Positions 840 to 19,892 of a DNA stretch of 33,815 nt are shown here, piece after piece. Made by a program: the position numbers and the translations under genes. Source of the DNA: a virus; IMG/VR virus record IMGVR_UViG_3300027996_002928, positions 1-33,815 of that record. One strand, 5' to 3'. The notes beneath the pieces were generated by a model. It was not told the DNA's origin. It was given only the letters and a program-made list of their open reading frames with translations, and searched no databases. Position 1 is the first letter of the stretch; every line of letters begins with the position of its first letter.

Positions 840-873
840 CATTATAAATTAGTTCATTATAAGGAGGTATGTT

Positions 874-1101
874 TTGGAAGGGCATTGTCAGAAATGCGGT
901 GTAAAATTCAATCACAAAAAAGGTCAGCGTGGGACCACGCATCACATCTTGCCTCAGAGATTTTTTGAGGGGAAAGGAGCGACTATGTTGCTATGTGATA
1001 CTTGCCATACTGCACTGGAAAAACTGATACCTCAACAGCCCAAGTTGAAAAGGAGTAAATATTGGAAAATCGCTTGGGACTTCATACAAGGCGGCGTTTG
1101 A
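874..1101 (+). CDS. Small HNH-type nuclease-like zinc protein with TTG start
   Basis: 75 residues with the HNH/treble-clef pattern: C5-x2-C8, H23-H24 (in THHILPQ), then C41-x2-C44-H45. The paired Cys bind the structural zinc, and the HH pair would be the metal/catalytic centre of an HNH nuclease. The start is unusual: a perfect SD AAGGAGG at 861-867 lies 6 nt before TTG at 874, whereas most genes here lack an SD; an ATG at 869 is out of frame. The gene interrupts the lysis cassette, which fits a small homing-type or free-standing HNH gene acquired as a moron. The spacing between HH and the second zinc pair is short (17 residues), so catalytic activity is likely but not certain. Confidence 0.6.
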   Translation: MEGHCQKCGVKFNHKKGQRGTTHHILPQRFFEGKGATMLLCDTCHTALEKLIPQQPKLKRSKYWKIAWDFIQGGV

Positions 1102-5762: not shown

Positions 5763-6222
5763 CAAAGGTCAATTTATTAAGGGCAGTTCTGGGTATTGGA
5801 AAAATAAAAAACTTTCCAAAAAACATAAAGAAAAAATGTCAGCTACTCATAAAGAATTGTGTGCTAATAATAAAAATATTCCTCCATCAAGATTAGGAAA
5901 ATCGCCTAATAATAAAGGCAAATCAAGACTTGATATGCTTGCTGAAAAAAATCATAATTGGAAAGGTGGCATATCTAAATCTAAAAGACCAGTTCATAGT
6001 ATAAAATATAAGAATTGGCGAAAGAAAGTTTTTGAAAAAGATAATTATACTTGTCAAGATTGTGGCATTAAAAGCGGTTTAGGGAAAGCGATTTATTTAG
6101 AAGCACATCATATTAAAGGTTGGGCTGATTATCCCAAACTAAGATATAAGGTCGAAAATGGATTGACTTTATGCAAAAGTTGCCATAATAAAACAAAAAA
6201 AAGGAAGGAAAAAATATGTTAA
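5746..6222 (+). CDS. NUMOD3-type HNH homing endonuclease
   Basis: 158 residues from ATG 5746, chosen because a strong SD AAGGAGG (5733-5739) sits 6 nt upstream; an ATG at 5710 in frame lacks one. The N-terminus (about 9-50) has the NUMOD3-like DNA-binding pattern GYWKNKKLSKKHKEKMS, followed by a second SPNNKGKS repeat. The nuclease domain shows C103-x2-C106, EAHHIKGW (H121, H122), the Asn in VENGL (N138) and C143-x2-C146-H147. Free-standing HNH genes of this type are mobile in phages, cutting a related genome at the insertion site. It overlaps genes on both sides by a few nt, so it does not break any reading frame. Strong SD in an SD-poor genome fits acquisition from elsewhere. Confidence 0.85.
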   Translation: MLKRNSKGQFIKGSSGYWKNKKLSKKHKEKMSATHKELCANNKNIPPSRLGKSPNNKGKSRLDMLAEKNHNWKGGISKSKRPVHSIKYKNWRKKVFEKDNYTCQDCGIKSGLGKAIYLEAHHIKGWADYPKLRYKVENGLTLCKSCHNKTKKRKEKIC

Positions 6223-6833
6223 GCGTAATTACATCTTGGGACGACGGCAGCCAATATGATCTAAGAATAGCTGAATTATTAGAGAAATATGATATATCGG
6301 GAATATTTTTTATACCTACCTGTGGCTATTTATCTGGTGATGATATTAAGTCATTATCAAAAGATTTCGAGATAGGCGGGCATACTACTACACATCCTGA
6401 GGATTTGAAAAGGCTCTCGCCGAAAGATCAGTATAACGAGATCAAAGATAATAAAGATTATTTAGAGGAAATTATTGGCAAAAATATTCATTGGTTTGCC
6501 TACCCAAGCGGTAGATACAAACCAGAAGTCACCTGCGACTTGATTGAAAAAGCTGGGTTCCTCTACGCTCGAACTACTGTCATCGGCTACAACCCTATAA
6601 TTCGTCCTTTAGATTATAGACTAAAGACTACTATGTCTATCTACCCTCGACCAGAATACAAGGGTAGGTATTTTCTGCAATATTTCAATAACTATATTGA
6701 AAGATTTTTGGATGAGGATGGCGTGCTACATATCTGGGGTCACGGACAAGACCTTGAAAAATATGATTACTGGCACGACCTCGAGGAATTATTTAAATAT
6801 ATTAAACATTTAGGATTACAAAATTATGATTAA
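6216..6833 (+). CDS. Polysaccharide deacetylase (NodB/CE4 family)
   Basis: 205 residues covering a compact NodB domain. Motif 1 is SWDDG (D9, D10: catalytic base and metal Asp). Motif 2 is GGHTTTHP with the metal ligands H56 and H60. Motif 3 is FAYPSGRY. A late HIWGHG supplies the final His. CE4 enzymes remove N-acetyl (or O-acetyl) groups from amino sugars in peptidoglycan, chitin-like or capsular polymers. No signal peptide, so it would act in the cytoplasm on precursors or sugar intermediates. It opens the glycan cassette and overlaps the HNH gene upstream and the small gene downstream. Function of the fold is certain; the substrate is not. Confidence 0.85.
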   Translation: MLSVITSWDDGSQYDLRIAELLEKYDISGIFFIPTCGYLSGDDIKSLSKDFEIGGHTTTHPEDLKRLSPKDQYNEIKDNKDYLEEIIGKNIHWFAYPSGRYKPEVTCDLIEKAGFLYARTTVIGYNPIIRPLDYRLKTTMSIYPRPEYKGRYFLQYFNNYIERFLDEDGVLHIWGHGQDLEKYDYWHDLEELFKYIKHLGLQNYD

Positions 6834-7050
6834 AAAAATGACAATTGATGAGGCTTCAGACAGAATGAAACAAGCCACATTAGAAGCATCAGAACTTTAT
6901 TGCAAACATAATAATCTTGAAAAAATTGATAGACAACATTGGATATTTTTGCATCTTGGGTTTATGTCGGCATTAAAATTATGTGGATATACTGAAGAAG
7001 AAGTAAGCCAAATTCAAGATGAAACTTGTAAAAAATTAGATTTAAAATAA
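6826..7050 (+). CDS. Small helical protein, unknown function
   Basis: 74 residues, predicted all-helical, with scattered Cys (Cys26, Cys53, Cys69) but no zinc-knuckle spacing. It overlaps the deacetylase stop by 8 nt and sits 11 nt before the epimerase, so it is part of the same transcript. I do not recognise the family. It is one of many small proteins filling the gaps between the glycan enzymes. Confidence 0.5.
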   Translation: MIKKMTIDEASDRMKQATLEASELYCKHNNLEKIDRQHWIFLHLGFMSALKLCGYTEEEVSQIQDETCKKLDLK

Positions 7051-7061
7051 AAATCAGTTTT

Positions 7062-7922
7062 ATGATATTGATTACAGGACATCAGGGTTTTATCGGCACT
7101 AAGCTCTGCCAAGAATTAAGAAAAAGAAAAATTAGTTATTTTGGTTATGACTTAAAAACTGGTGATGATATTCGTGATAAGTACCAATTAGCAGAGGTAT
7201 TTAATCGTAATCAGATCACAAAGGTTATTCATTTGGCAGCGCTTGCCGGTGTCCGGATGAGTAAAAACTATCCTAAAGATTATATTGATACCAATATTTT
7301 AGGGACCCAAAACATTGCTGATCTATGCAAAGAGTACAAAGTTGAAAACCTGATATTCTATTCCAGTTCATCTGTCTTTGGAAACTCAGTCAAACTACCG
7401 GCAGAAGATGATGCACCTAAAAATCCTATCTCTTTGTACGGGATTACTAAATTGGCTGGGGAGTATATAGTTCAAAACTCTGGCATCAAAAATATCATAG
7501 TCAGACCATTTACTGTTTATGGCGAAAATGGTCGCAAAGACGAGGTTGTCTATAAATGGATTGAACAAATAAAAGCCGGTAAGCCTATTACTATTTATGG
7601 TGATGACAGGTCTTGCAGGGGCTATGTTTATTTAGATGATCTGGTAGAAGCTACTATCAAATTGCTGGATTATAAGGAAAGTACAGCCTTGAATTTGGGA
7701 GGTAGTGAAATTGTTTATCTAAAAGATTTGCTGGATATTTTCAAAGCTAATATGCCATCAAATCGTAAGTTTGAGATTGATTACCTTGATAGACCGGAGG
7801 AGGATGTTTATCAGCAATTTGCTAACACTGCAAAGGCTAAAGAAGAAATTGGATTTGATCCGGAACCAAAATTTAAAAAAAATGTCAAGAGAATAATATA
7901 TAAAGAGTTTTTGGATTTTTAA
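7062..7922 (+). CDS. NAD-dependent sugar-nucleotide epimerase/dehydratase (extended SDR)
   Basis: 286 residues with the full extended-SDR layout. The NAD-binding TGHQGFIG is at 5-12 (GxxGxxG), ALAGVR follows the fourth strand, FYSSSSVFG gives the Ser of the triad, and YGITK (Y126, K130) is the catalytic YxxxK. A substrate-binding C-terminal part follows (RPFTVYGENGRKDEV, YVYLDDLV). This matches UDP-glucose 4-epimerase / UDP-glucuronate 4-epimerase type enzymes that supply sugar donors to glycosyltransferases; which sugar cannot be told. Slightly shorter than the usual 300-340. It lies among glycosyltransferases and a deacetylase and should act in the same pathway. Confidence 0.85.
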   Translation: MILITGHQGFIGTKLCQELRKRKISYFGYDLKTGDDIRDKYQLAEVFNRNQITKVIHLAALAGVRMSKNYPKDYIDTNILGTQNIADLCKEYKVENLIFYSSSSVFGNSVKLPAEDDAPKNPISLYGITKLAGEYIVQNSGIKNIIVRPFTVYGENGRKDEVVYKWIEQIKAGKPITIYGDDRSCRGYVYLDDLVEATIKLLDYKESTALNLGGSEIVYLKDLLDIFKANMPSNRKFEIDYLDRPEEDVYQQFANTAKAKEEIGFDPEPKFKKNVKRIIYKEFLDF

Positions 7923-7946
7923 GATCATTTTACATAGGAGGGCGTA

Positions 7947-8141
7947 ATGATAAACAATTATGTCCTTGACAGAGTAGGACAATCACATTGCCCAGCTTGC
8001 GGCAAGAAAACTCGTCATAAATTTGGCGAGATGGTCGGAAGCGGCGCTAAGATCAAGTTGTGTCTATATTGCGGCAGTCTCGATGTGCCTGAGGAAAGGG
8101 GGTGTGGTAGTTCAAGCTGTGGGGTAGTCAAATCTGATTAG
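7947..8141 (+). CDS. Small double zinc-knuckle protein with strong SD
   Basis: 64 residues with CPAC (C15, C18) and CLYC (C39, C42), a classic four-Cys zinc ribbon, plus Cys53 and Cys58 in a serine/glycine tail. The SD AGGAGG (7936-7941) lies 5 nt before the ATG, unlike neighbouring enzymes. A terminator hairpin overlaps its stop. It could bind nucleic acid or protein, but nothing specifies which. Its strong SD and own terminator suggest an independently acquired small gene. Confidence 0.6.
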   Translation: MINNYVLDRVGQSHCPACGKKTRHKFGEMVGSGAKIKLCLYCGSLDVPEERGCGSSSCGVVKSD

Positions 8142-8161
8142 GCTGTCCCCACAGCCTTTTA
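8141..8161 (+). terminator. Intrinsic terminator
   Basis: GGCTGT (8141-8146), loop CCCC, ACAGCC (8151-8156), then TTTTA. It overlaps the stop codon of the zinc-knuckle gene. An upstream GCTGTGGGG (8116-8124) could pair with CCCCACAGC (8147-8155) and compete with the hairpin. Confidence 0.7.
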
Positions 8162-8178
8162 TTCACTAAAACAAAATT

Positions 8179-8358
8179 ATGCTTCAAAACGTAAGCGCAT
8201 ATAAAAATACTTCTGTTCACTGGAGTAAATCTCAGGCAGAAATTCAAAAACTTTTGGATAAGTATGATATTCAGGAAACCAGATTTAGTAATCTATCTGT
8301 AATGGCTCGTGGTGAACATACTAAATTACATAATAAAATAAAGCATAAAAAAATATGA
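8179..8358 (+). CDS. Small protein with possible HNH-derived tail
   Basis: 59 residues. The first ~40 (VSAYKNTSVHWSKSQAEIQ, then KLLDKYDIQETRFSNL) resemble the start of a small phage protein family in which an S-x-x-K-T/S...EIxxLL pattern is followed by a beta domain. Here that domain is missing. The last ~18 residues (MARGEHTKLHNKIKHKKI) instead look like the C-terminal tail of an HNH endonuclease, where EHTxLH is common. It may be a recombination product or truncated gene. Stop and the next start overlap as ATGA at 8355-8358. Function unknown. Confidence 0.5.
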   Translation: MLQNVSAYKNTSVHWSKSQAEIQKLLDKYDIQETRFSNLSVMARGEHTKLHNKIKHKKI

Positions 8359-9206
8359 GGGTTTATATTACAATGTCAGATCGAAAAAGTATTGGTGGTG
8401 GTTTTTCTTTTAATCAAAATTTAAAACAAGCTCTACAAGGAAAGGTAGAATTTGTCAATACCCTAAGCGAAGCTGATATTTTCTTGATCTCTGGGATCAC
8501 TCAGACAGAGAAAGGACAGCTCGATTATGCTAAGCAGCACAGCATCCCTGTTGTGTTCAGGGTGGACAATATACCAAAGCCAAGTAGAAATCGTGGTATG
8601 GACGTTGTCAGTCGCTTTAAACAGTATTCTGAGGCTGCTGAGGTGGTAGTTTATCAGTCAGATTTTGCGAAGAAATTGTGCGAAAGGTGGTGCGGTGATG
8701 GAATTGTAATTTATAATGGCGTTGATACTGCACTGTTTAATAGTCTTGGAAAATCAATAGAAGCTAAGGTTAGCCAAAAAGAAGTTTATCTATTTGTAAA
8801 TCATAGCTCAAATGTCAATAAAAGATTTGAGGAAGCCCTTTACAAATTCTCAGAGAAATGGCGTGATAACCAAAATATAGAGCTTTGGCTGGTTGGTCGC
8901 TGTGATGGTGAAGAACATAATTATGATTTTATTGCCGGTGAAAAGGTCCGTAATTTCGGTGTTATAGAGGATCGAAAAGAGCTGGCTCGCATCTATCGTA
9001 GCGCTGACTATTTGCTTTATCCGGCGTTTGCCGATGCTTGCCCTAATGTTGTTTTGGAAGCTCGAGCATCTGGCTTGATAGTTGCTGGGACTAATCCCGT
9101 AGGCGGCACTCAAGAGCTGCTAAAAGATGATCTCGATATTAGCCTCAAGAGAATGGGCGATGAATATTTAGGATTATTTAATTTGGTAATGGATACTCCA
9201 AGATGA
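8355..9206 (+). CDS. Glycosyltransferase, GT-B fold (GT4-like)
   Basis: 283 residues with a GT4-like core. The linker between the two Rossmann domains contains YNGVDTALF (about 120-128), and the C-terminal domain opens with LFVNHSSNVNKRFEEAL. Then come WLVGRCDG, YRSADYLLYPAFADACPNVVLEARASG (the E-x7-E donor-binding region is partly kept, with Glu in VVLEA) and GTQELL. It ends soon after that, so the final helix of the usual ~350-residue enzyme is short. It should transfer a sugar from a nucleotide donor to a glycan or lipid carrier in the cytoplasm. It overlaps the genes on both sides by 4 nt and belongs to the glycan operon. Donor and acceptor unknown. Confidence 0.75.
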   Translation: MRVYITMSDRKSIGGGFSFNQNLKQALQGKVEFVNTLSEADIFLISGITQTEKGQLDYAKQHSIPVVFRVDNIPKPSRNRGMDVVSRFKQYSEAAEVVVYQSDFAKKLCERWCGDGIVIYNGVDTALFNSLGKSIEAKVSQKEVYLFVNHSSNVNKRFEEALYKFSEKWRDNQNIELWLVGRCDGEEHNYDFIAGEKVRNFGVIEDRKELARIYRSADYLLYPAFADACPNVVLEARASGLIVAGTNPVGGTQELLKDDLDISLKRMGDEYLGLFNLVMDTPR

Positions 9207-9457
9207 CAGTCAAAGATATAATAGACAAATTAAACTCCGGTGCTTCAAGAATATCACTTGGGCTTTGTGCCAATGGCGGCTGTTTTCATCAGCGCCGGCG
9301 TGGTAGAATAAAATCACAGTTTTGTCAGGAGTGTAGTGATAAGCATAATCGTAAAGATGAATATTCGGAAGGCGCTGCCTATACTGCTACACCTAATATT
9401 GAGTTTAAAGATGGTTGGTTTAGAAAATTATTAAAGTTTTTTAGAATAATAAAATAA
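9203..9457 (+). CDS. Small four-Cys zinc-binding protein
   Basis: 84 residues. Cys22, Cys27 and the pair C41-x2-C44 can bind one zinc; an arginine-rich stretch RRRGRIK (31-37) between them suggests nucleic-acid contact. The C-terminus is basic and aromatic (WFRKLLKFFRIIK). It begins with the ATGA overlap of the glycosyltransferase stop and is followed directly by the structured leader region. Function unknown; a DNA- or RNA-binding regulator is possible. Confidence 0.5.
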   Translation: MTVKDIIDKLNSGASRISLGLCANGGCFHQRRRGRIKSQFCQECSDKHNRKDEYSEGAAYTATPNIEFKDGWFRKLLKFFRIIK

Positions 9458-9746
9458 AATTGCGACGGCAGTACGGGGTTTTGATTGTCGTTAGCGGGTG
9501 GACAAAATTAGTTTCTCGGTTTCCTGCGGAAAGCGCCTAACTAAAGACCACTGATAGACATCCTTGAGGATGTACTGCATCAGTTGATAGTAGGGTAAGG
9601 CTATACAAAACCATCTACCCCGATAATATCTGTTTAGCCCTCAGTCTAACTGGGGTGCGTATTGTTGCTCACAATCGAACCTAAACTATTTATTTCGCCA
9701 TTTATAGTTTTGTTTCAAGGGTTTGATTGGGGGCTAAGGAGGTATT
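9455..9746 (+). ncRNA. Highly structured RNA leader or ncRNA (candidate cis-regulator)
   Basis: About 290 nt without an open frame and richer in GC than the flanks. Perfect or near-perfect stems: TTAGTT/AACTAA (9508-9513/9539-9544) enclosing TTTCC/GGAAA (9520-9524/9528-9532); ACTGAT/ATCAGT (9550-9555/9579-9584) enclosing ACATCC/GGATGT (9558-9563/9568-9573); GGGTA/TACCC (9593-9597/9616-9620); GGCTA/TAGCC (9599-9603/9635-9639), which crosses the previous stem as a pseudoknot; CCTCAGT/ACTGGGG (9639-9645/9649-9655); ATTGT/ACAAT (9661-9665/9671-9675); AAACTAT/ATAGTTT (9683-9689/9704-9710). TTAGCCC (9634-9640) can instead pair with GGGCTAA (9731-9737), which runs into the SD AAGGAGG (9736-9742) of the next gene. 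A weak promoter (TTTAGA 9419-9424, 17 bp, TAGAAT 9442-9447) lies upstream. No tRNA, tmRNA, RNase P or group I core motif was found. Confidence 0.6.
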
Positions 9747-9848
9747 ATGTGTCAAGAATTAGTTTATATTTTAAGCGGTTATTTTATAGGGCTATTTTGT
9801 GGTATTGTATTTGCTGGTTTAATTTGTTTAATTGAAAAAAGAAAATGA
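9747..9848 (+). CDS. 33-residue single-pass membrane protein
   Basis: 33 residues, mostly one hydrophobic helix (LVYILSGYFIGLFCGIVFAG) ending in EKRK. The SD AAGGAGG (9736-9742) is perfect, 4 nt before the ATG, and it is the first gene after the structured leader, so its translation is the likely target of any RNA switch there. Its stop overlaps the next start as ATGA. Small membrane peptides of this kind can modulate transporters or membrane enzymes; no function can be given. Confidence 0.55.
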   Translation: MCQELVYILSGYFIGLFCGIVFAGLICLIEKRK

Positions 9849-10012
9849 ATTTTGGACCTCAAATAGAAAAAGTCTGGGAAATACTTGATGAGTTTGATGT
9901 CTATGGTAGAAATAGAGAAAAAGCTGAAAAGAAAATTATCAAAACAATAGAATATTTTAGTGATCGTTCTTATAGACGAGGTTTAAAAGATGGTAAAAAA
10001 ATTAAGAAATAA
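9845..10012 (+). CDS. Small charged protein, unknown function (55 aa)
   Basis: 55 residues, beginning MNFGPQIEKVWEILDEF, rich in Lys, Arg and Glu, predicted two helices. It is coupled to the membrane peptide by a 4-nt ATGA overlap and ends 4 nt before the preferred start of the methyltransferase. No motif recognised. The ending KDGKKIKK is basic. Confidence 0.5.
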   Translation: MNFGPQIEKVWEILDEFDVYGRNREKAEKKIIKTIEYFSDRSYRRGLKDGKKIKK

Positions 10013-10016
10013 ATTT

Positions 10017-10610
10017 ATGAGTAGATCAAGAACACAATTAGAAAATTGGATCAAGGGTTTGGACATCAAAGCCAAAAAAATATTAGATGTTGGCGGTAGC
10101 CAGTTGCCTTTGATAGACAGGATAAAAATTATCAAAGGTTTAGAAAAATATAAAATCTTGGATTTGCCGCAGCCTCACGAGACAAGACAAGACCCGCATA
10201 TTGCTATGGACCTCAATGATAAATATGCTATGGAGCAATTTGCAGAATACAAAAACTATTTTAGCGCTGCGTTTTGTTTAGAAGTGATGGAGTATATTTA
10301 TAATCCGGTACAGGCATTGGAAAATATGTCTTATTTTATTAAAAAAGGTGGAAAGCTATATATTAGCTTCCATTTTTATTATCCTGTTCATAAGCCGCAC
10401 GGCAAAGATTATCTACGCTATACTGAATTTGGCGCTGTGAAATTGCTTGAGAACGCTGGCTTTGATGTACATCGTGTTGATATGCGCCTGCCGTCAGTTG
10501 AAAGTGCTGCTCTAATCGAACAGTACGATGGCAATGAGGGTAATAAGCGTGATCCTAATTATGGGCATCACTACGTCAATGGATTTTTAATAACTGCAAT
10601 TAAACAATAA
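10017..10610 (+). CDS. Class I SAM-dependent methyltransferase
   Basis: 197 residues from ATG 10017, which follows the usual taaatttATG context; an in-frame ATG at 9990 would add 9 residues and overlap the previous gene. Motif I is KKILDVGGS (about 21-28), the acidic residue after strand 2 lies in MDLNDKYAM, motif IV is FSAAFCLEVMEYIYNPVQAL, and post-motif IV is KKGGKLYISFHF, all as in Methyltransf_11-type enzymes. These methylate small molecules or sugars. It sits in the glycan cassette, so O-methylation of a sugar or lipid-linked glycan is a reasonable guess. Confidence 0.75.
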   Translation: MSRSRTQLENWIKGLDIKAKKILDVGGSQLPLIDRIKIIKGLEKYKILDLPQPHETRQDPHIAMDLNDKYAMEQFAEYKNYFSAAFCLEVMEYIYNPVQALENMSYFIKKGGKLYISFHFYYPVHKPHGKDYLRYTEFGAVKLLENAGFDVHRVDMRLPSVESAALIEQYDGNEGNKRDPNYGHHYVNGFLITAIKQ

Positions 10611-10614
10611 TATT

Positions 10615-10851
10615 ATGGAATTACTATTATTAGCAATTTGGGTTGTATTAGGCGCTTGGTGTGCTGATATTGCTCGTAAGCGAGGTAGATCACCTGTTTG
10701 GGGAGCTATCTGGGGTGTGCTATTCGGTTTTATTGCTATTATCATTTATTTGATAATGGGCTATACCGCCGAGCAAAAAGAAAAGGATTTAAACGATATG
10801 CTTGATCGCCGTGAAAAACGGGCTAACAAAGCCTATCAAGTAAAAAAATAA
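10615..10851 (+). CDS. Two-helix membrane protein, unknown function
   Basis: 78 residues with hydrophobic segments at about 2-16 and 27-49, separated by a basic loop (ARKRGRSP), and a charged cytoplasmic tail rich in Glu, Lys and Arg (about 52-78). This topology resembles small phage and bacterial membrane proteins of the PLDc_N type, but the fit is loose. It is 4 nt after the methyltransferase and 6 nt before another membrane peptide. It could be an anchor for the glycan enzymes or a superinfection protein. Confidence 0.5.
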   Translation: MELLLLAIWVVLGAWCADIARKRGRSPVWGAIWGVLFGFIAIIIYLIMGYTAEQKEKDLNDMLDRREKRANKAYQVKK

Positions 10852-10857
10852 TACTAT

Positions 10858-10977
10858 ATGGAAATAATAAATAGTACAATTGAATTTATATTTAGCGGTA
10901 AGCTATTTGTTATTCTGGGTATATTAGTATTTATTTATATGATATTAAAGCTAATAAACATAACAATAATTTTATGA
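10858..10977 (+). CDS. 39-residue membrane peptide
   Basis: 39 residues, highly hydrophobic: KLFVILGILVFIYMILKLIN forms one membrane helix, with few charges. The start follows atactatATG with no SD, and the stop overlaps the next start as ATGA, which supports that it is really translated. Function unknown. Confidence 0.45.
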   Translation: MEIINSTIEFIFSGKLFVILGILVFIYMILKLINITIIL

Positions 10978-11156
10978 GTGATGTATTTTCGATCGAATTA
11001 AAAAAAGGTATTAGAGTTATGGCTCGTTTTAATTCTGAGGATGACGAGCTTGAAATTTTAGATCAGAATAAAAATTGGGTTAAAGTCTATTCTTTAAATA
11101 AAACTCAATATAATGCCTTAAAATATTCAATACACGATCAAGGACAAGGAAAATAA
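10974..11156 (+). CDS. Small protein, unknown function (60 aa)
   Basis: 60 residues with alternating strands (IRVMARFNSEDDELEILDQN) and a short helix near the end, likely a small beta fold. It starts with the ATGA overlap after the membrane peptide and ends 17 nt before the fused glycosyltransferase. No motif recognised. Confidence 0.45.
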   Translation: MSDVFSIELKKGIRVMARFNSEDDELEILDQNKNWVKVYSLNKTQYNALKYSIHDQGQGK

Positions 11157-11173
11157 TTAAATAAATAGAAATT

Positions 11174-12760
11174 ATGAAAGTTTTAATTATCTCGGATACG
11201 CCGAGAGATGGCTGGGCAATAGGCAAATTGTCTGATGTTATCATTCGGCATAATCCGCAAATCAATTTTACTTTTTTAGCAGTCCATCCTAAAGAAGTTG
11301 AAAAGCATATCGACAAAGTCAAAGAGGCTATTAAGGGAGTTGATCTAATTCATTTTCAATATTGGAATACAGCAAGACAGTTGTTTGAGTTTTTGCCAGA
11401 ATTGAAAAGTTATAAAAGTATCTTGACCCATCATAATCAGAAAAATACTTTGTCTTATGACTGGAATAAAATGGGCATTGATTATCATATTACCCATACT
11501 GAAAAAAATCGCCAGCAGTTATTAGCTGATGGCTATAACGATAATAGTATTATTCAACACGGCATAGATTTGGATTATTTCAGCTATTTTGATGATTATA
11601 CGGGTGATACAGGTTATGTTGGCTATGTTGGTCGGGTAGTGCCTTGGAAAGGCTTAAAAGAAATAGCTTGGGCTGCCAGACAGAACGATATGAAGGTTGT
11701 TGCTATGGGTAAGATGGATAAACCTGCCTATTGGGCTGAGATACCCTTAGAGGATCAAAACAATATTGATTTTACTTATAATAATGTCCCTGATAACGAA
11801 AGGATAAATTGTTATCGAGAGATGATGTGTTTTGTCCAAAATAGTTCTGCTGGGCGTGAAGAAGGTACTTTACCACTGCTTGAGGCTATGGCTTGTGGTG
11901 TACCAGTTATTTCTACTCCATCCGGTGAAGCTGCCGATATTATAAACGACGGCGAGAATGGCTTTATTGTTCCATTTGAAAATAAAGAAGCTCTAAAAGT
12001 CAAAATTAAAATGCTCAAGGATGATCCTGAGCTTCGTAAAAAACTTAGAGAAAATGCTTGGCAGACTATCAAGAATTTCACTGAGGAAAAAATGGCTCGA
12101 GAGTATTCTAAAATTTATTATCAAATTTATCACGGGCATAAAGAATTAGTGACAGTTATTACTCCAGCTTTTAATTCTATCAATGAAGTCATTGAAACCT
12201 ACAAGGCTTTAGAAATTCAAACACTACCTATTGCTGAGTGGATTATTGTTGATGATAATTCCGATGATAATAAAATAAAAGAATTTGTTGAGAGCATTAA
12301 AGATGATAGTAGTTTTGCTATTCGATATATGAATACTGGCAAGGAAGGCTATAATCTTGCTATGGCTCGTAATATGGGCATTATCGAAAGTGCTACAAAA
12401 TTTTTGATGTTTTTAGATAGCCGCTTGTCCCCTGATCCTGATGCTGTGATGTCTTTTACCAAAAACTATAAAGACAATCATTGGTTGTTTGGTGATAAAG
12501 GTAGTCATAAAAAATCATTTGTCGAAAACTTTAGCTTTATCAAACGAGGCGACCTGATCAAGATTGGTATGTTTTGTGAACGCATCGATCGCTATGGTGG
12601 TATGAGCCAAGAGATCAGGGCAAGGTGGGGAGCTGCCGGTAATGAGTTTAAATATATTGAGGGAGCTAAAGCTATACAATTATCTGGCTCTAAGACTACT
12701 AATAAAAGACGGCGAGATATTATCGCTATGAAATTAAGACTTTACAAGATGGGGCTATGA
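11174..12760 (+). CDS. Bifunctional glycosyltransferase: GT4-like plus GT2-like
   Basis: 528 residues with two enzymes in one chain. Residues 1-~315 form a GT-B enzyme: VLIISDTPRDGWAIGKLS at the start, THTEKNRQQLL and QHGIDLDYF in the interdomain region, VGYVGRVVPWKGL, then REEGTLPLLEAMACGVPVIS (about 228-247), the E-x7-E donor-binding signature. Residues ~325-528 form a GT-A enzyme of family 2: TVITPAFNS, WIIVDDNSDD, NLAMARNMGI and MFLDSR at the DxD place, where the second Asp is Arg. That change may weaken metal binding. Fusions of this kind make two successive sugar linkages. Its stop overlaps the next start. The donor sugars are unknown. Confidence 0.8.
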   Translation: MKVLIISDTPRDGWAIGKLSDVIIRHNPQINFTFLAVHPKEVEKHIDKVKEAIKGVDLIHFQYWNTARQLFEFLPELKSYKSILTHHNQKNTLSYDWNKMGIDYHITHTEKNRQQLLADGYNDNSIIQHGIDLDYFSYFDDYTGDTGYVGYVGRVVPWKGLKEIAWAARQNDMKVVAMGKMDKPAYWAEIPLEDQNNIDFTYNNVPDNERINCYREMMCFVQNSSAGREEGTLPLLEAMACGVPVISTPSGEAADIINDGENGFIVPFENKEALKVKIKMLKDDPELRKKLRENAWQTIKNFTEEKMAREYSKIYYQIYHGHKELVTVITPAFNSINEVIETYKALEIQTLPIAEWIIVDDNSDDNKIKEFVESIKDDSSFAIRYMNTGKEGYNLAMARNMGIIESATKFLMFLDSRLSPDPDAVMSFTKNYKDNHWLFGDKGSHKKSFVENFSFIKRGDLIKIGMFCERIDRYGGMSQEIRARWGAAGNEFKYIEGAKAIQLSGSKTTNKRRRDIIAMKLRLYKMGL

Positions 12761-13248
12761 TGGATAGAGAACAAATAAAAATCAATCTTGGTTGCGGTCG
12801 GCAACGGAAATACGGCTATATCGGTATTGATCAAATTCAATACGTAGATAAAAAAAGTAATGAAATGGTCGATAGAATTGTCGATATTGAAAAAAGCAAA
12901 CTACCATTTGAAGATGATAGAATTGATGAAATATTAGCTGATAATATTTTTGAGCATTTAGGCGATGGCTTTATTCACGCTTTAAATGAATGTCATAGAG
13001 TTTTACGTCCTACTGGTAAATTAGTTGGTACTGTGCCTCTGGCTGGGACCAAAGAGGATTTTCAAGATATTACTCACAAGCGACATTTTATAGAAGAAAG
13101 TTTTGGTTATCTAACTGGCAAAAATAAAGCTATGGATAATAGACCAAGCCATCCTCGCTATGCTGATTATGGAGTATTACCTTGGAAAAAGAACGAATTA
13201 TTTGTCAAAAATAATTTAATATATTTTAATTTATCACCTAAGAAGTAA
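12757..13248 (+). CDS. SAM-dependent methyltransferase (first of a tandem pair)
   Basis: 163 residues. Motif I is INLGCGRQRKYGYIGID, followed by VDIEKSKLPFEDDRIDEI, NIFEHLG, the helix ALNECHRVLRPTGKLVGTVP and THKRHFIEESF. This is the type-11-like methyltransferase seen in polysaccharide clusters. The start overlaps the stop of the fused glycosyltransferase; ATG at 12757 and 12760 are equivalent. It shares the layout and several motifs with the next gene (NLGCG, KLPFEDD, LNECHR), so the two are paralogues. Substrate unknown; a glycan or lipid intermediate is likely from context. Confidence 0.75.
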   Translation: MMDREQIKINLGCGRQRKYGYIGIDQIQYVDKKSNEMVDRIVDIEKSKLPFEDDRIDEILADNIFEHLGDGFIHALNECHRVLRPTGKLVGTVPLAGTKEDFQDITHKRHFIEESFGYLTGKNKAMDNRPSHPRYADYGVLPWKKNELFVKNNLIYFNLSPKK

Positions 13249-13252
13249 TTTT

Positions 13253-13690
13253 ATGAAAGTTAATTTAGGATGTGGCGAGGATTTTGGCGAGGATTTAATT
13301 GGCATTGATGTCCACGATTACGGACAGCAACATATTCTTGATCTTGAAAAAGATAAATTGCCTTTCGAGGATGATAGTATAGATCAGGTTTTCGCTAAGC
13401 ATTTTATTGAGCATCTAAAAGATGTCAAAAATTGTTTGAACGAGTGTCATCGGACTTTACGTAAAGGCGGTGAGCTTGATATTAAAGTACCAAATGCTAT
13501 GTGGCAAGGAGCATTTATGCCACCTCACTTTCAGCATATTACTTTGTCTTGGTTTGATTTTTTGAGTAAAGATAAAACCAAATTGTATGGTTATTGTCAA
13601 TGGGAAATAAGGCTATTAGAAGCTACTAATAAAACTTCTGATGTACCTGATGGCAAAGAAATTCATTGTATATTAACTCCAATAAAATAA
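13253..13690 (+). CDS. SAM-dependent methyltransferase (second of a tandem pair)
   Basis: 145 residues with VNLGCGEDFGEDLIGIDVH (motif I to strand 2), DLEKDKLPFEDDSIDQVFAKHF, IEHLKD, LNECHRTLRKGGELDIKVPN and HFQHITLSWFDFL. It is clearly related to the gene just upstream and starts 4 nt after it. Both are shorter than typical 200-250 residue methyltransferases, so each may be a minimal catalytic domain, perhaps acting as a pair. Substrate unknown. Confidence 0.75.
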   Translation: MKVNLGCGEDFGEDLIGIDVHDYGQQHILDLEKDKLPFEDDSIDQVFAKHFIEHLKDVKNCLNECHRTLRKGGELDIKVPNAMWQGAFMPPHFQHITLSWFDFLSKDKTKLYGYCQWEIRLLEATNKTSDVPDGKEIHCILTPIK

Positions 13691-13694
13691 AATT

Positions 13695-13898
13695 ATGACA
13701 CAACATAAAATAGTCTGCATTTGTGGTAAGTGTAATCCAGAGGCTATAAAACAAGAATTACTACACGAATACACAGCTTGGCTTATCAAAAACGGATATA
13801 CTGATACTGATCCAGCTTGTGAAGAATCATTAGCAGTAGATGAGTTTTTAAAAGAGCAATTAAATAAAAAAAACAATGAAAAAACTAAAAGTATTTAA
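13695..13898 (+). CDS. Small protein, unknown function
   Basis: 67 residues. Three Cys near the N-terminus (ICGKCNPE region) could bind metal but a fourth ligand is not obvious. The rest is helical and acidic, ending in a run of Lys and Asn. Its last 23 nt overlap the next glycosyltransferase. No family recognised. Confidence 0.45.
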   Translation: MTQHKIVCICGKCNPEAIKQELLHEYTAWLIKNGYTDTDPACEESLAVDEFLKEQLNKKNNEKTKSI

Positions 13899-14844
13899 TC
13901 ATCCTTGGCATCTTGCCCATCAATACGAGCTGATGAAATTTGATTGGCTTGAGTGGTCTTGGCTTGTCCAGTATCACCGGCAATATGGTGACACTTCAAG
14001 AGGTGACTTTTTCACCGGCAATATGGTCCCTCACTATGAAGCAGGCAAATATGATTTTGCTCTATTGCATTTAGATCAGCAATGTTTAGCTGATAATTTA
14101 TTAGAGCGAGGCAAAGGAAGTTTATATCGTGAGCTAAATGAGACTATCCAAGATATTCCAAAGATAGTTCTTATGCACGGCACTCCTTTTTATCCAGAGC
14201 ATTTTGCTACTCAGCAAGAAATGATTGATAAAGCCAAAGAGCTTATTGGTGACAACTTTGTTATCACTAATTCTAAGGCTGCTGCTGAGCAGTGGGGCTT
14301 TGGCTATCCTATTTGGCACGGGATGGACCCTAAGGAGTGGTATGACCTACCAAAAGAGCCTCGTGTCGTGACTATGATTGGTCCGGCAGGTCTTGATTGG
14401 TATTATGATCGCAATTTCTTAAAAGCTGTTAAAGACTATTTAGAGGAGGAGGGTATTATGCACTGTCATATTACTGCTGACTGGGCTGCTAATAATTGGG
14501 AGGAATATCGCCAATTCTTAGGTCGCAGTTTATTATATTTTAATCCTACACGAGAAAGTCCTATGCCTCGAGCAAGAACTGAGGCTATGCTATCCGGCTC
14601 TTGTGTTTTGACTACACCTAATCAAGATGCTGATCAGTTTATTAAAGATGGCGATAACGGATTTATCATACCCCGTAATCCTAAAAAGGTTGTTGAGCTA
14701 ATCAAATCCTTGATGAAAGATTATGATTTGGCTTTAAAGATTGGTCAGGCAGGTAAAAAAACAGCTATCGAAACTTTTAGTCATAAACGCTTCGAGGATG
14801 ATTGGAAAAAAATGATACAATTAGCTTTAAAAATAAAACTATGA
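13876..14844 (+). CDS. Glycosyltransferase, GT-B fold (GT4-like)
   Basis: 322 residues. The N-terminal domain has KVFNHPWHLAHQYELMKF and IVLMHGTPFYPEHF. The C-terminal domain has VTMIGPAGLDWYYDRNFL, LLYFNPTRESPMPRARTEAMLSGSCVLTT with the donor-binding acidic region (ESPMPRARTEAML), and NQDADQFIKDGDNGFII. These fit GT4-like enzymes of capsule and lipopolysaccharide clusters, although the usual E-x7-E is altered (Glu...Glu with Pro and Arg between). Its stop overlaps the next gene as ATGA, so the two glycosyltransferases are translated together. Donor and acceptor are unknown. Confidence 0.75.
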   Translation: MKKLKVFNHPWHLAHQYELMKFDWLEWSWLVQYHRQYGDTSRGDFFTGNMVPHYEAGKYDFALLHLDQQCLADNLLERGKGSLYRELNETIQDIPKIVLMHGTPFYPEHFATQQEMIDKAKELIGDNFVITNSKAAAEQWGFGYPIWHGMDPKEWYDLPKEPRVVTMIGPAGLDWYYDRNFLKAVKDYLEEEGIMHCHITADWAANNWEEYRQFLGRSLLYFNPTRESPMPRARTEAMLSGSCVLTTPNQDADQFIKDGDNGFIIPRNPKKVVELIKSLMKDYDLALKIGQAGKKTAIETFSHKRFEDDWKKMIQLALKIKL

Positions 14845-15728
14845 AAATTGGAATTTTAACTTTTGAGAAATTTCATCGTAAGCCTTTCAACTCTATTGGT
14901 AGTTCTCGGATCAGGGTCAATGATATGGTCAAATATTGGGATGATGCCGAGATTTATAAATACGGGCAGAAATATGATGTGATGATCTATCAAAAAGTCT
15001 ATTGGACTGAACACGCCAAAACATTTAGAGGACTAAAGATTTTGGATATTTGCGATGCTGATTTTATGCACTGGGGCTATAAGACTATCGAGATGTTGCA
15101 GTATTGCGATGCTTTAGTCACGCCTACTCAAAAATTAGCAGTCGCTCTGGCTCGCTATACTGATAAACCTGTCTGGGTTATCCCTGATAGGATGGATTTA
15201 AACAACTATCCTCACAAGAAAACACATACTGGTAAAGCCAAAAAGATAGGCTGGTATGGTTATGCACAGAACTTTCATATCGTCAATGAAAGTGGCATTA
15301 TGAAAGCTCTATATGATCTAAATAAAAAAGCCGCGGACCTTGAGTTTATTGCTATTTCAAATGGTATGTATGTGCCACCGGCTTTTGCTAAGGATGCAGT
15401 CAAGATCACTAATTATCGTTGGAGCCTAAAGACTGTCAATCAGGATATTCAGAAATGCGATATTATTATCAATCCTAAATTAGATAGCGGACCTTATCAG
15501 TACAAATCAAATAATAAAACTCTACACGCTCTTGCTTTAGGCGTACCGGTTGCTCACGATCTCAATGAGCTATTAGCTTTGATGGATGGTGATGCCCGTA
15601 ATACTGAGATAGAGGAAAAGACTAAATTACTCAAAGACAAATATCATATTACGCAGTCAGTAGAGGAATATAAAAATTTAATTAAAGACATCTATGTATC
15701 AGCAAAAAAAGAAGTGGACAACAGCTAA
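14841..15728 (+). CDS. Glycosyltransferase-like protein (GT-B fold)
   Basis: 295 residues from ATG 14841, chosen for the 4-nt overlap with the previous stop; an in-frame ATG at 14802 would overlap much further. Seen: MKIGILTFEKFHRKPFNSIGSSRIRV, a nucleotide-fold start, DVMIYQKVYW, ILDICDADFMHW, LVTPTQKLAVALAR, VWVIPDRMDL, IGWYGYAQN, then DIIINPKLDSGPYQYKSNNKTLHALALGVPV. The last segment is the donor-binding region typical of such enzymes, with Lys/Ser residues contacting phosphate. It closes the glycan cassette. The last 35 nt overlap the nuclease gene. Confidence 0.65.
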   Translation: MKIGILTFEKFHRKPFNSIGSSRIRVNDMVKYWDDAEIYKYGQKYDVMIYQKVYWTEHAKTFRGLKILDICDADFMHWGYKTIEMLQYCDALVTPTQKLAVALARYTDKPVWVIPDRMDLNNYPHKKTHTGKAKKIGWYGYAQNFHIVNESGIMKALYDLNKKAADLEFIAISNGMYVPPAFAKDAVKITNYRWSLKTVNQDIQKCDIIINPKLDSGPYQYKSNNKTLHALALGVPVAHDLNELLALMDGDARNTEIEEKTKLLKDKYHITQSVEEYKNLIKDIYVSAKKEVDNS

Positions 15729-16071: not shown

Positions 16072-16173
16072 TTATCCACTGTCCCCTCCCCTCCCCTGAT
16101 TTTTGAAAAATTTTGACCCAATGAAAATGGGGCAAAACTCAATAAAACAGGTAGAGATAGCGGAGGAGGGGAG
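16072..16173 (+). promoter_or_regulatory. Regulatory interval: DnaA-box-like site and nested stems
   Basis: TTATCCACT (16072-16080) is one base from a DnaA box. Three CCCCT repeats follow (16083-16097). CTCCCCTCC (16086-16094) can pair with GGAGGGGAG (16165-16173), 9 bp, enclosing a second hairpin TTTTGACCCA / TGGGGCAAAA (16111-16120/16128-16137, one mismatch). The interval separates the glycan/DUF1064 genes from the HNH-AP2 and packaging genes. It may stop or attenuate transcription; no clear T-run follows. Confidence 0.4.
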
Positions 16174-16198
16174 TGCGCTAAAAATTAAATAAAATAGT

Positions 16199-19419: not shown

Positions 19420-19594
19420 TTGTAGGCATCCCCGTCCTCCAATTAAATTGGGGGCTGTCCTATGCTTATAAGACAAGGTGAGGCGATAGCTTCTGGGATG
19501 CGATCTCAAATCACCATAGTCTATTACATATTGCCAAAACCGCCTTGCCTTGAAATATATAGGACAGGGGGGTAATAAATTTGGCAATTTTTTT
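19420..19594 (+). ncRNA. Candidate structured noncoding RNA ending in a terminator
   Basis: A GC-richer stretch with several perfect stems: GCATCCC/GGGATGC (19426-19432/19495-19501); CCTCCAAT/ATTGGGGG (19436-19443/19447-19454, with a G-T pair); CTGTCCTAT/ATAGGACAG (19455-19463/19559-19567), which competes with a local hairpin TGTC...GACA (19456-19459/19472-19475); and ATTGCCAAA/TTTGGCAAT (19530-19538/19580-19588), followed by a run of T to 19594. The last stem and T-run look like the terminator of this RNA. The strand is set by that T-run. A 78-codon frame on the other strand is treated as a by-product. It matches no RNA family I recognise. The remaining parts of the 19121-19615 interval (19189-19225, 19255-19315, 19349-19419) show nothing I can identify. 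Confidence 0.5.
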
Positions 19595-19609
19595 ATTTTA
19601 TGTTATTAT
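19581..19609 (+). promoter_or_regulatory. Leaderless promoter of the Com-like gene
   Basis: TTGGCA (19581-19586), 17-bp spacer, TATTAT (19604-19609), with the ATG at 19616 only 6 nt later. The -35 is part of the terminator stem of the upstream RNA, so the end of one transcript and the promoter of the next share bases. Confidence 0.6.
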
Positions 19610-19822: not shown

Positions 19823-19831
19823 CTTTTTGCT

Positions 19832-19892
19832 AAACTACGTGTGTTAGCGCAAAGGCTTGAACTATGTGCGTCTTGTGTGCGTAGTTTTTTTT
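19832..19892 (+). terminator. Terminator-like hairpin between the Com-like and portal genes
   Basis: AAACTACG (19832-19839) pairs with CGTAGTTT (19880-19887) and eight T follow (19885-19892). The loop is long (about 40 nt) and GU-rich. It may reduce transcription into the portal gene. Confidence 0.6.

Follow-up and report, generated by a model that had tools for sequence, protein, structure and literature searches.

Several described leaders are close to the one reported here. In the maturation-gene leader of phage MS2, a transient fold permits translation to start before an inhibitory long-distance fold is made (as cited in PMC6733600). The primary transcript of aapA3 is untranslatable, which is a hallmark of type I loci, and metastable hairpins have been described in it (PMC6733600). 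In erm-type translational attenuators, a hidden SD is freed when competing hairpins refold. The manA and wcaG RNAs of phages sit near sugar and exopolysaccharide genes (PMC2864571) and are suspected riboswitches.

We analyzed a 33.8-kb IMG/VR virus record (the whole stretch is called the window here) from a tailed phage whose major genes are all on one strand. A preliminary description had placed a structured leader of 292 nt (9455 to 9746) inside a glycan cassette, ahead of a gene for a 33-aa membrane peptide, and this gene layout was as described. The features are listed in Table 1.

Table 1. Features of the leader and its surroundings, in window positions
Feature	Positions	Strand	Remarks
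84-aa ORF, two cysteine pairs	9203-9457	+	First ORF of the lineage-specific cargo block; its end meets the start of the structured RNA
Promoter-like sites	9419-9450	+	Overlapping sigma-70-like hexamers, TTTAGA-17-TAGAAT and TAGAAA-18-AATAAT; suggestive
5' domain	9460-9622	+	Hairpin, then multibranch fold with GGGUGGA/UCUACCC as its closing helix; a sensor or scaffold candidate on modest evidence
ON hairpin 1	9622-9666	+	Occupies the 5' OFF arm; z -2.9
OFF helix, 5' arm	9623-9651	+	Contains TTAGCCC (9634-9640)
ON hairpin 2	9667-9734	+	Adjoins hairpin 1; occupies the 3' OFF arm as far as the last base ahead of UAAGGAGG; z -5.0
OFF helix, 3' arm	9720-9748	+	Contains GGGCTAA (9731-9737), SD AAGGAGG (9736-9742) and AU of the start codon
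SD and start codon, UAAGGAGGUAUUAUG	9735-9749	+	Free in ON, buried in OFF
33-aa single-span membrane peptide, MCQELVYILSGYFIGLFCGIVFAGLICLIEKRK	9747-9848	+	ORF reading; no homolog
55-aa ORF	9845-10012	+	Start overlaps the stop of the peptide ORF (ATGA); lacks an SD
Methyltransferase of the glycan cassette	10017-10610	+	Often directly behind the glycosyltransferase in relatives

On balance, the folds modeled below suggest that translation of the 33-aa membrane peptide is under a bistable switch, a reading that we hold to be somewhat more probable than its opposite. Like the MS2 maturation-gene leader, such a switch would belong to a phage, expose the SD in a transient fold, hide it in the final fold and be controlled by folding time. 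The MS2 leader is a cloverleaf in an RNA phage, whereas here we have a dsDNA phage and about 290 nt in which two abutting hairpins stand against one helix with 29-nt arms; no sequence relation to MS2 is claimed. The aapA3/IsoA3 and hok/Sok systems share with this locus a small hydrophobic peptide, an SD in a very stable helix and metastable intermediates. In aapA3 and hok, however, the final anti-SD lies downstream, and the metastable hairpins of aapA3 hide the SD, while here the anti-SD lies about 100 nt upstream, the metastable fold exposes the SD and no antisense RNA was seen. The erm-type attenuators are alike in the freeing of a hidden SD by the refolding of competing hairpins. No SD-led peptide frame of the erm type overlaps the arms here; the leader has only SD-less TTG or GTG frames.

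Two mutually exclusive folds at the SD

All fold energies come from nearest-neighbor models of one single sequence. The 292-nt stretch folded at -93.2 kcal/mol (z -3.4), and none of 200 shuffles did as well; the fold of its minus strand reached -72.0 only. The 3' half of the leader is clearly non-random and the 5' half probably so.

In the preliminary description, TTAGCCC paired with GGGCTAA, which adjoins AAGGAGG. Both segments were found at those places and their pairing is real, but it does not stand alone as seven bases: it is the middle of a helix with arms of 28 to 29 nt, the OFF helix of Table 1. Among stems spanning less than 200 nt, this helix is the top one of the whole window with a score of 51, compared to 33 to 46 for the best stems of 20 whole-window shuffles. 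It is strand specific, with a minus-strand score of 34 at this site. The 28-nt arms are 79% Watson-Crick, and four of the six remaining positions are G-U on the plus strand, which argues for selection on the plus-strand RNA. The domain from 9622 to 9749 folds with a z of -6.3. In the ensemble, TTAGCCC pairs within the OFF helix with a probability of 0.99, and the unpaired probability of the SD bases 9740 to 9746 is at most 0.6%.

The upstream GGCTA, earlier proposed as the competitor for TTAGCCC, did not hold up: this pairing has 5 bp, lies 11.6 kcal/mol above the minimum and shows no excess structure. In the models, the stronger mutually exclusive alternative is the hairpin pair 9622-9666/9667-9734, which was absent from the pseudoknot that had been described. 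It is the best fold with SD and AUG free and leaves exactly UAAGGAGGUAUUAUG single-stranded, at a cost of 9.9 to 10.6 kcal/mol; the OFF fold is modeled to be about 10 kcal/mol more stable. A prefix ending at 9734, with the last 15 nt removed, adopts the two hairpins (-35.5, z -4.0). When prefixes of growing length were folded, the ON fold was present by 9735 and the OFF fold by 9746, the long helix winning once the SD is made. Of 1,000 controls that kept the OFF arms but had the loop between them shuffled, none changed fold in the 113-nt prefix and 9 were as stable as the real prefix. The competing helix by itself stood out less, at p 0.005 when the whole sequence was shuffled and p 0.045 when the arms were kept. 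Each ON hairpin is significant by itself (z -2.9 and -5.0), and the minus-strand counterparts were much weaker. A path search gave barriers of 8.5 kcal/mol from ON to OFF and 18.5 kcal/mol from OFF to ON, both heuristic upper bounds. By computation, then, the leader has two mutually exclusive folds that hide or expose the SD, each beyond chance, and the switch layout first proposed from the letters gains support from the OFF domain, the ON prefix and the loop-shuffled controls alike. Since both folds end exactly at the SD and AUG, this would be a clean and easily tested two-state switch.

If folding order matters in vivo, as we infer, the two ON hairpins would form first as RNA polymerase passes. 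The SD and AUG would then emerge single-stranded and be usable for a short time, until the RNA rearranged to the more stable helix 9623-9651/9720-9748, in which both are buried. By default, each transcript would give a short burst of expression or next to none, unless the ON fold were held by the 5' domain with a ligand or protein, by a bound ribosome or by an RNase that removes the 5' arm. Against the switch, the great stability of the OFF fold might leave the gene silent unless a helper acts, and the peptide, an orphan, may not be expressed. The leader may thus act as a co-transcriptional timer, or its ON fold may be held by a ligand, protein or processing event. Control may possibly extend via the ATGA overlap to the 55-aa ORF. 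The methyltransferase that follows has an AU-rich start typical of this phage and so need not depend on the switch.

What the peptide would do is where the main rival for the biological role comes in, a type I toxin-like arrangement. Here, the 33-aa hydrophobic peptide would be a small membrane toxin, or else a peptide for growth, lysis or exclusion. The full-length transcript would pass through a metastable fold while being transcribed and then be untranslatable by long SD sequestration until RNA processing or loss of an antisense RNA released it, as has been described for aapA3 and hok. A single-span hydrophobic peptide of 33 aa agrees with this, as does the burial of the SD in a long helix that has a metastable competitor; a small hydrophobic peptide is here combined with a sequestered SD. 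However, a scan for sigma-70-like sites, the one promoter type covered, found none on the minus strand of 9455 to 9990 for an antisense RNA. Type I toxins usually stand alone, and the ORF of this peptide overlaps the next gene. In the type I systems compared above the metastable hairpins hide the SD, whereas here they expose it. A search for homologs of the peptide found none, which also counts against a toxin. We consider the type I arrangement quite unlikely, and the bistable switch is preferred.

The 5' domain and phage RNAs near glycan genes

Transcription from the sigma-70-like hexamers upstream of the leader would begin at the very start of the structured region. These sites are only suggestive, and their count in the region is only slightly above that in shuffles. 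The switch reading supposes that the stretch is transcribed as one leader. No intrinsic terminator (a GC-rich hairpin with a U run) was found in 9455 to 9850.

The 5' domain has a modest fold excess (z -2.0), and within it the hairpin 9549-9584 stands out (z -3.4). The excess of the domain is weakly above chance and does not establish a sensor role. Downstream of this hairpin, GGGTA (9593), GGCTA (9599) and TACCC (9616) are all at the positions named before, but the pseudoknot that they were thought to form by GGGTA/TACCC and GGCTA/TAGCC is without support. The piece 9584-9640 has a z of -0.06, which is not above chance, and simple counting gives about 40 perfect 5-bp matches expected in 290 nt.

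As the preliminary description had supposed, the leader resembles no known RNA, here as far as Rfam 15 goes: none of 4,227 families matched at the gathering score and nothing matched at an E of 10. A tRNA and tmRNA search of the window found none. An apparent AATCGAACC T-loop was rejected, being on the wrong strand and lacking a stem.

The RNAs closest in setting are manA (RF01745) and wcaG (RF01761), which are likewise phage-borne, structured and near glycan genes. The manA RNA has been described mainly from marine samples and cyanophages. Its model gave no match in the whole window at the gathering score or in 9380 to 9860 at E up to 10, while the same kind of covariance scan recovers manA-like copies in the CPR-type phage L102 at E 1e-6 to 1e-3. 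Of the manA core (GUGaCUGAAUAA, hairpin, UAAgG), the window has only GGGUAAGG at 9593 to 9600, with no CUGAAUAA upstream. Thus, we rejected manA membership of the leader, which lacks both the CUGAAUAA core and a covariance-model match. Weak manA matches in three Patescibacteria genomes were chance-like, and none was in a structured intergenic RNA.

Two tandem RNAs before the portal gene of L102, which has a near copy in L163, score as manA at 31.3 and 21.5 bits, below the gathering score. Each sits inside a long closing helix (L102:5099-5483, also L163:3281-3446; fold z -6.7). An intergenic manA core, GTGACTGAATAA-hairpin-TAAGG, was also seen at L209:1498-1550 in an 81-kb phage contig with a related methyltransferase.

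These findings bear on the reading of the leader as a ligand-binding riboswitch, in which the 5' domain would be an aptamer holding the ON or OFF fold, in a distant or new class like manA/wcaG. The place of the leader inside a glycan cassette, as with the manA/wcaG RNAs (PMC2864571), speaks for it. Related phages do have manA-like RNAs, a bistable expression platform is present, and GGTAAGGCnnTACAAAACC is common to the window and L102 copy a (17 of 19 nt identical; pairwise p 0.002 before search correction). Set against these are the lack of any manA/wcaG match at E 10, the absent CUGAAUAA core, the z of only -2.0 for the 5' domain and the place of the shared motif in a stretch without excess structure. 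Moreover, a scan of 2.9 million viral contigs for this motif gave 17 matches judged to be chance, mostly in genes, and one L102 near copy. We give the riboswitch a low probability.

A broader proposal would place the leader in a new class of phage RNAs. A sensor at 9460 to 9622 would set a tuned platform with two states, and this platform would gate a membrane peptide in a glycan-modification cassette, with a strong SD as a special signal where most phage genes start without one. We regard this as unlikely, if a little less so than the riboswitch or the toxin.

The phage, its SD usage and the cargo block

A few other viral contigs encode capsid proteins that share about 59 to 65% identity with that of the phage, and a capsid protein from a Candidatus Magasanikbacteria contig shares 63%. 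This likeness to binned contigs makes a host among the Patescibacteria (CPR) most likely. Almost nothing is known about gene regulation in Patescibacteria; if the switch is right, it would be RNA-level translational gating in phages of this group, in a genome that rarely uses an SD. Nearly all genes of this phage start behind AU-rich stretches without an SD, which is also the rule in most of its relatives, so the AAGGAGG of the peptide is a strong outlier in this group. CCUCC is kept at the 16S 3' end in two Patescibacteria genomes, including one from Magasanikbacteria, implying that an SD can work in Patescibacteria. Another of the few strong SDs, also AAGGAGG, belongs to a 75-aa HNH-type ORF with a TTG start (window 861-1101). 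ORF starts called behind a strong SD at 78 and 1123 were put down to start-call artifacts.

The glycan cassette (genes 6216 to 15728) encodes a deacetylase, an epimerase, glycosyltransferases and methyltransferases. Flanking proteins and terminase as queries gave no close relatives. Alignments of the capsid and methyltransferase did give relatives, but none carrying the structured RNA. In the syntenic relative G005, the methyltransferase begins 11 nt behind the glycosyltransferase. The two genes adjoin in about 10 of the 30 cassettes measured and the rest have differing cargo; from this gene order, the block 9203-10013, including the RNA, is lineage-specific cargo between two glycan genes. Since the block is absent from close relatives, the switch would not be needed by this phage type in general. 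The 84-aa ORF that opens the block had no match in Pfam, PHROGs, phages or viral contigs. The glycosyltransferase-methyltransferase junction appears as a cargo hot spot (window 9207-10016 compared to L092 and L164-L208), with up to 2 kb of differing genes.

BLAST, patterns and covariance models were run, with no positive control, on phage collections, on records of CPR-type phages and on 380 genomes of Patescibacteria, and no second copy of the RNA was found. This counts against the switch reading. DNA similarity searches in phages returned short chance pieces only. The pattern TAGCCC..GGGCTAAGGAGG had four matches in viral contigs and the ON-hairpin pattern had two, all of them chance and coding. 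Single-sequence covariance models of both domains matched the window alone, and the 3'-domain model found nothing in the 380 Patescibacteria genomes and 47 phage records.

A lineage-specific block raises the prospect of a decayed or captured structured RNA, from mobile cargo or a processing site, whose long inverted repeat ends at the start codon by chance and has no regulatory role here. The 0.8-kb block is missing from relatives in which the glycosyltransferase and methyltransferase adjoin, it has no homolog, its GC is above most of its intergenic neighbors and its strong SD is foreign to the usage of this phage. Yet neither fold is damaged, each is tuned to stop right at the SD, and decay would not build a competitor fold. 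This origin seems improbable to us, about as much so as the toxin and the riboswitch.

Other structured stretches were noted in the window and in related phages. A short intergenic gap at window 16072-16198 has a long C-rich/G-rich inverted repeat (CCCCTCCCCTCCCC ... GGAGGAGGGGAG). The terminase-portal gap (window 19420-19600) is structured and non-coding, with z -3.5 and -3.3 on the two strands in a 150-nt window and no convincing Rfam match. A hairpin (AACTATGTGCGTC...) followed by a T run lies just before the portal gene at window 19826-19885, L014:6595-6665 and L101:3065-3130; it is similar across several relatives and is possibly a terminator, an antiterminator or a late-operon control element. 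Directly behind the apparent end of the terminase gene, the non-coding stretch L182:442-666 (the same gap is in L183 and L184) has very strong structure (z -6.5) and no Rfam match. The CPR-type phage contigs L170 (170-1068) and L172 (11-648) carry tRNA gene arrays near a glycan cassette.
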